Origin: Sulfurospirillum halorespirans DSM 13726
GTDB lineage: Bacteria; Campylobacterota; Campylobacteria; Campylobacterales; Sulfurospirillaceae
Direction of reading: 5' to 3'
Assembly: GCF_001723605.1 (NCBI RefSeq)
Contig: NZ_CP017111.1
Location: forward strand, 248,001 to 312,000
DNA length: 64,000 bases
Shown one piece after another: positions 52,758 to 54,793 of this stretch (position 1 is its first letter; each line of letters begins with the position of its first letter). The notes under the pieces were generated by a model. The model ran no database searches, was not told the DNA's origin, and saw nothing but the letters and a program-made list of their open reading frames with translations. The position numbers and the translations under genes were made by a program.

Positions 52758-53105
52758 ATGACCAAAGAAAAACTCATCTCCGACACGCAAACCTTGCACC
52801 GTTTTATTCAACTGCATTGCGACAAAAAGCATCACGATATTCCCAAAAAGAAGGGCGCTTTGCAGGTGAGTTTTAAAGAAGAGTCCTTGTGCGATCTTCC
52901 CTATCATATCTGCGAAGAGTGCGAGACGCTTTTTCTCTACGCGTATGGCAAACTGAAAAATTGTCCGCACGAAAATAAACCGAGTTGTCGCAAATGTCCC
53001 GATCCGTGTTATGCAAAGCCGATGTGGAAAAAGATGGCGAGCGTGATGATGTTCAGCGGTATGCAGTTTGGACTGACCAAAATACGCAAAATCTTTTCCA
53101 AATAA
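52758..53105 (+). CDS. YgbA-like (nitrous oxide-stimulated promoter family) protein
   Basis: A 115-residue Cys-rich cytoplasmic protein. It matches the YgbA family: an early HRFIQLHC region, a CEECETLFLYAYGKLKNCP segment, then CRKCPDPCYAKPMWKKM and a final basic stretch. The family is linked to recovery from nitric oxide in E. coli, with an undefined mechanism. The cysteine pattern could bind metal. The stop overlaps the ATG of the radical SAM gene (TAATG). Confidence 0.78.
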   Translation: MTKEKLISDTQTLHRFIQLHCDKKHHDIPKKKGALQVSFKEESLCDLPYHICEECETLFLYAYGKLKNCPHENKPSCRKCPDPCYAKPMWKKMASVMMFSGMQFGLTKIRKIFSK

Positions 53106-54793
53106 TGCTCCCCTACCTCAGTCACAAAGCCTTTATGCGCTCGCATTACGGCGAAGCACTGTTTAGCATTCCTGTCAATTTAGAGTTTGGTTGCCCTAAC
53201 CGTGAAAAAGATGGAAGTGGCGGCTGCTCTTTTTGCCCCGAACATGGAGCGCGTGCAGCGCAGATCGCCGATGCAAAGAGCGTGGAAGAGCAGATCGAAA
53301 AAGCGCTCTTATTTGCCAAAAGACGGTACAAAGCCTCGTCATTTGCGCTCTACATTCAAGCCTACACAGGAACCTTTGCTTCGTTGGTCACGCAAAAAGA
53401 GGCGTATGGAAAACTGCTGTCGCTCTATCCCTTTCGTGCTTTACATGTAGGTACACGTCCTGATTGTCTCAGTGAATCGACGCTGGAGTATTTGCGTGAA
53501 TTAAACCAAAAAATAGACGTCGTGGTCGAACTAGGCGTGCAAACTTTACACGATGCAAGCTTAGCGCACATGAATCGAGGACACGATGCCGCCTGTTCGC
53601 TGGATGCGATTAGACGTTTACATGTAAAAGGGTTGAAAGTCTATGCGCATCTCATTATCGGCTTGCCAAATGAGAATTTAGAGATGTGGAAACAGAGTTT
53701 GAAAGGCTTGGTGGACGCGGGCATTGATGGCATTAAATTTCACAATTTGCATATCATCGAAAACACCGATTTGGCGCGCGAATTTTCTCAAAGCCCTTTT
53801 GCACTTTTAAGCGAGTACGAATACGCCGAAGCGCTCATCGAGCTGTTGCGTTATGTTCCTTCTACCATTCCCATCTTACGCCTTGCAACCGACACGCCAG
53901 CGCATGAACTCATCGCTCCAAAATGGCACATGGCAAAAGGGCAGTTTGGCGAATACGTCGCCCAAACGATGCGTTATCGTGGTATCAAACAGGGCGATTT
54001 GGTTGAATCTAAGCGCGAAGAAAGTTATGAAATACCACAAAAAATCGATCTAAAAGATGGAAGTTCGACTTTGTGGAGTGAAACGTACCATGATTATTAC
54101 CATCCCAAAGCAGGTGCGTACATACAAGCCAAAGAGCTTTTCATTGAAAAATCAGACCTCAAAGCACGTCTTGAAAAAGGCGACGTGAACCTTTTAGAGA
54201 TCGGTTTTGGGATGGGTTACACCACCTTTAAAGCGTTAGAATTAGCCCAAACCTTAGCCAAAAATCGTTTACATGTAAACGCCATCGACCAAGACCGCAT
54301 GCTCTTAAAAACGGCTTCTGCCATCGTCCCCAATACTTTACATGTAAAGATGTTGAACGCGCTTTTTACATGTAAAACCTACGAAGATGATTTTGCGAGG
54401 ATCGACTTCCACACTATCGAAGCGCGCTATGGTGTCACACTTTTAAGCGAGACATTTGATGTCATCTTTTTAGACCCCTTTATCGAGAGCAATAACGCTT
54501 CGCTCGTCACGTTAGAATTTTCCCAAAACCTGCGAAAACTGCTTAAACCAAATGGCGTTTTGGTCACCTCAACCGCTTTACATGTAAGCCAAATCGGACT
54601 CACTCTCGCAGGCTTTGACGTCAGCGTCGCCAATGATGAAAACAGCGACATCAAAGGTGTTGTCGCCAAACATTCTACGGCTTCAAAATCGTTACATGTA
54701 AAAGAGCCGTACAGCGATCCTTATGGTGTTTGGAGTGATAAAATGATAGAAAGTGAGCATCAAAAAGTCTTTACATGTAAAGGCAAAAGTTAA
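53105..54793 (+). CDS. Fusion of YtqA/MnmL-like radical SAM domain and MnmC-like methyltransferase
   Basis: A 562-residue protein. The first part (about 1-310) is a TIGR01212/YhcC/YtqA-type radical SAM domain with Cys30, Cys41 and Cys44 (CPNREKDGSGGCSFC), TRPDCL, VELGVQT, MNRGHD and IKFHNLHI. The second part (about 320-562) is a Rossmann methyltransferase like the MnmC N-terminal domain, with LLEIGFGMGYTT (about residue 365) and VIFLDPF (about 455), then LRKLLKPNGVLVTST. In B. subtilis YtqA (MnmL) and the separate methyltransferase YtqB (MnmM) finish mnm5U34 of tRNA; this fusion probably joins the two steps. ATG at 53105 gives the family N-terminus. The gene carries seven exact TTACATGTAA copies and one variant. 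Confidence 0.88.
   Translation: MLPYLSHKAFMRSHYGEALFSIPVNLEFGCPNREKDGSGGCSFCPEHGARAAQIADAKSVEEQIEKALLFAKRRYKASSFALYIQAYTGTFASLVTQKEAYGKLLSLYPFRALHVGTRPDCLSESTLEYLRELNQKIDVVVELGVQTLHDASLAHMNRGHDAACSLDAIRRLHVKGLKVYAHLIIGLPNENLEMWKQSLKGLVDAGIDGIKFHNLHIIENTDLAREFSQSPFALLSEYEYAEALIELLRYVPSTIPILRLATDTPAHELIAPKWHMAKGQFGEYVAQTMRYRGIKQGDLVESKREESYEIPQKIDLKDGSSTLWSETYHDYYHPKAGAYIQAKELFIEKSDLKARLEKGDVNLLEIGFGMGYTTFKALELAQTLAKNRLHVNAIDQDRMLLKTASAIVPNTLHVKMLNALFTCKTYEDDFARIDFHTIEARYGVTLLSETFDVIFLDPFIESNNASLVTLEFSQNLRKLLKPNGVLVTSTALHVSQIGLTLAGFDVSVANDENSDIKGVVAKHSTASKSLHVKEPYSDPYGVWSDKMIESEHQKVFTCKGKS
54269..54780. repeat. Dense cluster of six TTACATGTAA palindromes
   Basis: Six exact copies start at 54269, 54338, 54366, 54578, 54692 and 54771, all in the methyltransferase half of the fusion gene. 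Four are read Leu-His-Val and two Phe-Thr-Cys. A seventh exact copy (53618) and a one-base variant (53442) lie in the radical SAM half. This is the highest local density in the window. Confidence 0.92.

Follow-up and report, generated by a model that had tools for sequence, protein, structure and literature searches.

MnmL (YtqA) is the radical SAM enzyme responsible for the cmnm5-to-nm5 step in B. subtilis and S. mutans, and the Bacilli-type MnmL is the experimentally studied kind. The subsequent nm5-to-mnm5 methylation in B. subtilis is carried out by MnmM (YtqB, PF06962). Another methyltransferase, MnmC2, is known both as the N-terminal half of the bifunctional E. coli MnmC, where it is joined to the FAD oxidase MnmC1, and as the stand-alone DUF752 protein of Aquifex (PDB 3VYW). 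In E. coli MnmC, the two active sites lie ~45 Å apart, and release of the tRNA between the two steps has been proposed (PMC3648344).

The locus described here lies in a 64,000-nt stretch of DNA, hereafter called the window. Its product combines, within a single polypeptide, an MnmL-family radical SAM enzyme and MnmC2, rather than MnmM or MnmC1. We consider it likely that this protein is a bifunctional tRNA wobble-uridine enzyme converting cmnm5(s2)U34 to nm5 and then to mnm5(s2)U34, and that it was gained horizontally and took over from a resident MnmC2. Starting from the cmnm5(s2)U34 that MnmE/MnmG would make, the radical SAM domain would produce nm5(s2)U34, as MnmL does, and the MnmC2-type domain would methylate the amine of nm5(s2)U34 with SAM to yield mnm5(s2)U34, the same proposed reaction as that of MnmM/YtqB. 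In Sulfurospirillum, the resident MnmL would thereby have become redundant or a back-up. We infer the substrate, the order of the steps, and the activity of both halves; domain identity, both folds, the cluster cysteines, the SAM loop, the Asp178 equivalent, the absence of MnmM and MnmC1, and the replacement seen in relatives all argue for this bifunctional reading.

A full-text literature search, with most subscription papers outside its reach, returned no description of an MnmL-MnmC2 fusion. The abstract of the MnmL work by Jaroch et al., which appeared in J Bacteriol in 2024, reportedly mentions fusion proteins in this pathway; therefore, the architecture may already be known. Articles citing that work offered no detail on fusions. 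NCBIfam already names both parts; the present analysis adds where the fusion branches in the trees and how it replaces the resident enzymes step by step.

Architecture of the fused protein

The fused gene and its parts are as follows:

53105..54793, + strand: fused mnmL-mnmC2-like gene encoding 562 aa (open frame; TIGR01212 and MnmC2/PF05430 matches; AlphaFold2 model)
53105..54004, + strand: radical SAM domain, aa 1–300 (TIGR01212 over aa 6–299; Elp3-like fold; 32/37 near-invariant MnmL positions)
53192..53236, + strand: 4Fe-4S cysteine loop C30-x10-C41-x2-C44 (conserved cysteines)
54050..54679, + strand: MnmC2-like methyltransferase domain, aa 316–525 (PF05430; Aquifex MnmC2, 3vyw, E 7.4e-12)
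54203..54217, + strand: SAM-binding loop GFGMG, aa 367–371 (aligned with E. coli MnmC G66–G70)
54473..54475, + strand: Asp457, which corresponds to Asp178 of E. coli MnmC (11 of 12 sampled Campylobacterota fusions conserve it)

Inspection of the reading frame revealed 562 uninterrupted codons from position 53105 on the + strand. The protein matches the Pfam families Radical_SAM, Radical_SAM_C, and Methyltransf_30 (PF05430), each above its cut-off, and the AlphaFold2 model, for which 43 aligned fused proteins served as input, is confident in both domains (pLDDT 90.3, pTM 0.89). The two-domain ORF is present in 32 of 44 genomes of its own family, in some of them as fragments, and also occurs in other phyla; therefore, it reflects neither a frameshift nor a chance joining. 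That two neighboring genes were merged by an error of assembly or annotation has next to no probability, given the continuous frame, the single confident two-domain model, and 82 fused loci of identical architecture elsewhere (not all independent), which include the isolate genomes of S. diekertiae, S. cavolei, and Malaciobacter halophilus. An assembly artefact, in particular, is ruled out by these relatives with matching architecture. The fusion of an MnmL/YtqA-family radical SAM domain with a C-terminal methyltransferase is real, and the one-polypeptide architecture proposed in the sequence-only reading was borne out by the TIGR01212 and PF05430 matches and by the model of both domains.

The radical SAM half matches the NCBIfam equivalog TIGR01212 (“tRNA modification radical SAM protein MnmL/YtqA”) over aa 6–299 with 242.6 bits, above the curated cut-off of 180 bits. 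Its cysteine motif, C-x(n)-C-x2-C, is intact, with a loop one residue shorter than that of the stand-alone MnmL resident in the same genome. C30, C41, and C44 are retained in 96% of the 25 fused proteins sampled and are invariant across a 17-member alignment (A1). At locus L051, a loop deletion takes out part of the cysteine loop. Across 19 stand-alone proteins (13 from Campylobacterota, 6 from Bacillota and Fusobacteria), 37 positions are fixed at a level of 95% or more, and the window protein retains 32 of them. The domain differs from MnmL/YtqA in its attached methyltransferase and in its placement in a sister clade with proteins of Kiritimatiellota/Verrucomicrobiota and spirochaetes; its identity is 28–31% with the Bacilli proteins and 32% with the resident MnmL. 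Residues K35, I84, G89, and A112 stand where G, F, N, and G are fixed in the clade holding the Bacilli MnmL, and these few clade-fixed differences, together with the position outside that clade, count against the bifunctional reading. By sequence, the closest solved relative is Elp3, a radical SAM enzyme for tRNA U34 cm5, which is also the nearest solved fold. The model aligns with Elp3 bound to tRNA over 281 residues, through the Elp3 radical SAM core (Z 25.0), whereas the fusion lacks the acetyltransferase domain of Elp3 and a different product is expected. The domain ends in ...RGIKQGDL, as do unfused homologues from Kiritimatiellota/Lentisphaerota; several unfused relatives terminate near the start of the fusion linker (...RGIxQGDL). 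Among Sulfurospirillum, this half is better conserved than the methyltransferase half.

The methyltransferase had been described from the letters alone as resembling MnmC rather than MnmM, a view that the family and fold searches uphold. PF05430 was matched with a score of 40.7 against a cut-off of 22, whereas Pfam returned no PF06962 (MnmM) match in the fused protein. Aquifex MnmC2 (3vyw) is the closest solved relative by sequence (E 7.4e-12) and also the best by fold, with Z 27.8 and an rmsd of 3.4 over 248 residues for chain D; against E. coli MnmC, Z is 21.6. The MnmC2 model NF033855 of NCBIfam matches aa 325–507 with 73 bits (E 3e-20), well above chance yet under the curated cut-off of 136 bits; this shortfall speaks against the bifunctional reading, and the stand-alone MnmC2 proteins of the phylum likewise fall under that cut-off. 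The fusion shares with MnmC2 the SAM loop, whose counterpart G66–G70 binds SAM in E. coli MnmC (PMC3648344), and the Asp of LDPF (aa 456–459), which aligns with Asp178. In E. coli MnmC, Glu101 and Asp178 appear to be critical for binding SAM and transferring the methyl group (PMC3648344); in the fusion, Glu101 is replaced by Asp395. Further differences are that the domain is C-terminal and that its partner is a radical SAM enzyme. Indeed, neither Pfam nor NCBIfam detected a TIGR03197/DAO (FAD-dependent MnmC1) domain in the fused protein, which distinguishes it from the bifunctional MnmC.

Wobble enzymes in the genome and the phylum

The genome is a single contig of 3,029,840 bases, and values that it shares with named loci such as those of Sulfurospirillum sp. 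SCADC, S. diekertiae, and S. cavolei suggest that it belongs to Sulfurospirillum. The sequence-only reading had proposed to check whether mnmC, mnmL, and mnmM are lacking elsewhere in the genome; of these, only mnmL turned up. A profile search for MnmM (PF06962) had no match in this genome or across 61 genomes of the phylum; its control did pick up MnmM in B. subtilis and Lactococcus. MnmC1 above the cut-off was found neither here nor elsewhere among the 44 family genomes, and no separate MnmC2 turned up in this genome, where the fusion is the sole MnmC2 match. However, a second TIGR01212 protein, a stand-alone MnmL of 317 aa with 299 bits, is encoded directly downstream of purF, ~80 kb from the fusion; therefore, the fusion is not the sole MnmL-type protein of the genome. 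The same reading had named a full MnmC or an MnmL/MnmM set elsewhere as evidence against itself, and one part of such a set is thus present. As the resident MnmL could perform step one alone, its presence weighs against the bifunctional reading. MnmG was found in all 44 family genomes by E-value and above the cut-off in 40.

In a survey of 200 genomes of the phylum, 172 contained an MnmC2 match. Most sampled families have one MnmL of ~320 aa and one MnmC2 of ~230–290 aa in separate genes, which are adjacent in six genomes (G016, G018, G050, G119, G124, and G167). One family (f3) carries MnmC2 mostly in frames of ~610–640 aa, above the cut-off, without any TIGR01212 protein above its cut-off; these long frames are consistent with full MnmC proteins. 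The distribution is thus complementary, with full MnmC lacking MnmL in f3 and MnmL accompanied by a separate MnmC2 in most others. Since separate MnmL and MnmC2 genes occur in most families, this is the ordinary arrangement, and the fusion is a variant of the same. Accordingly, the idea of a third, hybrid solution in one enzyme stands as to the joining of MnmL-type and MnmC2-type domains, but the pairing itself is usual in the phylum as separate genes and the fusion is a widespread family that probably arrived horizontally. Genomes of one genus (g18) mostly lack both MnmL and MnmC2. In two genomes (G106 and G127; loci L101 and L102), a separate MnmC2 is present, yet no MnmL above the cut-off; in these two, either MnmEG using ammonium or an unknown enzyme would be needed to supply nm5U.

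Within the window's own family, 27 of the 32 genomes with the fusion also retain the stand-alone MnmL. None of the ten genomes in genus g2 has the fusion, MnmL, or MnmC2, but eight of them have an MnmC1-like protein scoring 133–159 bits against a cut-off of 174. For the one such protein tested, the MnmC1 score was far above that for glycine oxidase. One example (L052:1426-2553) is a stand-alone MnmC1-like FAD protein with 159.7 bits as MnmC1.

Origin of the fusion and replacement of resident enzymes

Within Campylobacterota but outside the family, a wider scan of 84,980 species genomes located the fusion in Sulfurovum, Sulfurimonas, Arcobacter sp. CECT 8985, and Malaciobacter halophilus; beyond the phylum, it occurs in MAGs of Kiritimatiellota, Verrucomicrobiota, Lentisphaerota, Cloacimonadota, Planctomycetota, and Margulisbacteria. 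Unfused relatives of the radical SAM half belong to Kiritimatiellota/Lentisphaerota and spirochaetes. In the radical SAM tree, all fused domains from Campylobacterota group together (100/98), nested inside a larger clade (100/99) whose fused and unfused members are of the Kiritimatiellota/Verrucomicrobiota type. The MnmL proteins resident in Campylobacterota form a different clade (100/99), with E. coli YhcC nearby and the Bacilli MnmL on the same side; the radical SAM half of the fusion does not group with the Bacilli-type MnmL but lies in a sister clade with 100/98 support. In this tree, MnmL-family genes of Anoxybacillus, Enterococcus, and Listeria (plasmid-labelled records) served as stand-ins for B. 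subtilis YtqA. In Anoxybacillus, an MnmM gene follows mnmL, and it is for this stand-in only that the neighboring methyltransferase gene was confirmed as PF06962. In the methyltransferase tree, the Campylobacterota fused domains are again one clade (100/98), separate from the resident MnmC2 clade (100/98). Because both halves cluster away from the residents, a ready-made fusion was likely gained horizontally, probably once. By its placement in the trees, it probably entered Campylobacterota from a Kiritimatiellota/Verrucomicrobiota-like lineage; this direction, likely from the nesting, depends on a foreign clade whose inner forks are weak. A joining of the resident mnmL and the resident mnmC2 within Campylobacterota was also considered but rejected, as each half falls in a clade apart from the residents.

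Three Lentisphaerae fusions (L153, L156, and L160) were not counted as clear MnmC2, because their C-terminal methyltransferase scores poorly against MnmC2 and has no residue matching Asp178. In a Kiritimatiellia MAG (L151:3290-4900), an otherwise unfused homologue of the radical SAM domain is joined at its N terminus to QueH (epoxyqueuosine reductase; PF02677, 193.6 bits) and is thus another wobble-base enzyme fusion.

The Campylobacterota genomes show a natural progression, with one resident enzyme and then the other giving way to the foreign fused protein. Five genomes outside the family, from Arcobacter, Malaciobacter, Sulfurovum, and Sulfurimonas (G234–G238), have the fusion and both separate genes, and most Sulfurospirillum have the fusion and MnmL without a separate MnmC2. 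Two Sulfurospirillum lineages (G211 and G218) have the fusion alone; in them, the gene located downstream of mnmL in other genomes comes directly after purF, at distances of 68 and 3 bases. As G211 and G218 lie on separate branches of the tree, mnmL is absent in two lineages. The series thus runs from both sets, through loss of the resident MnmC2, to clean loss of the resident mnmL in two Sulfurospirillum lineages, and in some relatives the fusion appears to have fully replaced the separate enzymes. Among 16 genomes of other phyla with the fusion (G240–G255), 14 have no second TIGR01212 protein above the cut-off and 15 no second MnmC2 match; a second MnmL is present in G246 and G247, and a second MnmC2 also in G247. 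In three Lentisphaerota genomes of this set (G253–G255), the methyltransferase match is weak. Fusion-only genomes argue that both halves work, and in such species a single gene and a single purified protein would suffice to test the MnmL step, which is poorly understood.

These genomes bear on two other accounts of the protein. In the first, the resident MnmL makes nm5U and the fusion acts mainly as a methyltransferase, its radical SAM half being recruiting or redundant. Most family members with the fusion do keep the stand-alone MnmL, whose score in the present genome is still 299 bits, and it is only the separate MnmC2 that they generally lose. Yet the radical SAM half retains its cysteines and 32 of the 37 key positions and is the better conserved half in Sulfurospirillum, the fusion was kept where mnmL was cleanly lost, and it is usually the sole MnmL in other phyla; we therefore regard this division of labour as unlikely. 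In the second, the radical SAM half catalyzes a C5-side-chain conversion other than that of MnmL, and the protein makes a variant wobble nucleoside. The clade separate from both the Bacilli and the resident MnmL, clade-specific changes in the QAYTGTFA segment, and the presence of the fusion alongside complete resident MnmL and MnmC2 in Arcobacter, Sulfurovum, and Sulfurimonas would fit such chemistry, but the MnmC2-type partner domain, the successive loss of resident MnmC2 and mnmL in fusion genomes, and the high retention of MnmL-invariant residues make it very improbable.

The bifunctional reading also has to accommodate the unfused relatives. MnmM was sought in 37 genomes that carry the fusion or an unfused relative and was found in none. 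The genomes of the unfused Kiritimatiellota/Lentisphaerota-type and several spirochaete homologues contain neither MnmC2 nor MnmM; therefore, this radical SAM branch is not always paired with a known methylase, which counts against that reading. A broader proposal, that a distinct, horizontally spread branch either performs radical SAM chemistry not seen in MnmL and makes a nucleoside beyond mnm5(s2)U, or converts cmnm5 to mnm5 on one bound tRNA with the intermediate unreleased, seems distinctly doubtful to us.

Upstream gene and a repeated palindrome

Two further features of the window are as follows:

52758..53105, + strand: small YgbA_NO-family gene upstream of the fusion (PF11756, 48.6 bits)
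1568, 4376, 53617, 54268, 54337, 54365, and 54770: example sites of a repeated palindrome (35 sites in the window)

The stop codon of the YgbA_NO gene overlaps the ATG of the fusion by one base (TAATG). The gene lies directly upstream in 40 fusion loci, all from the Sulfurospirillum group and some of them duplicate records, with a typical gap of −1; among fusion loci of other lineages, it was not found. This overlap suggests that translation of the fusion may be coupled to that of a nitric-oxide-linked protein.

The most frequent 10-mer in the window is the palindrome TTACATGTAA (35 copies); allowing at most one mismatch, TTTACATGTAAA is present 34 times, where 0.41 would be expected. The repeat may serve as a signal of the genus, either of the uptake type or highly repeated for another reason; papers on such a role were not among the matches of the literature search. 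Seven sites fall within the fused gene, mostly in the methyltransferase half, and code for LHVK or FTCK, and several sites are found at matching places in other Sulfurospirillum loci.
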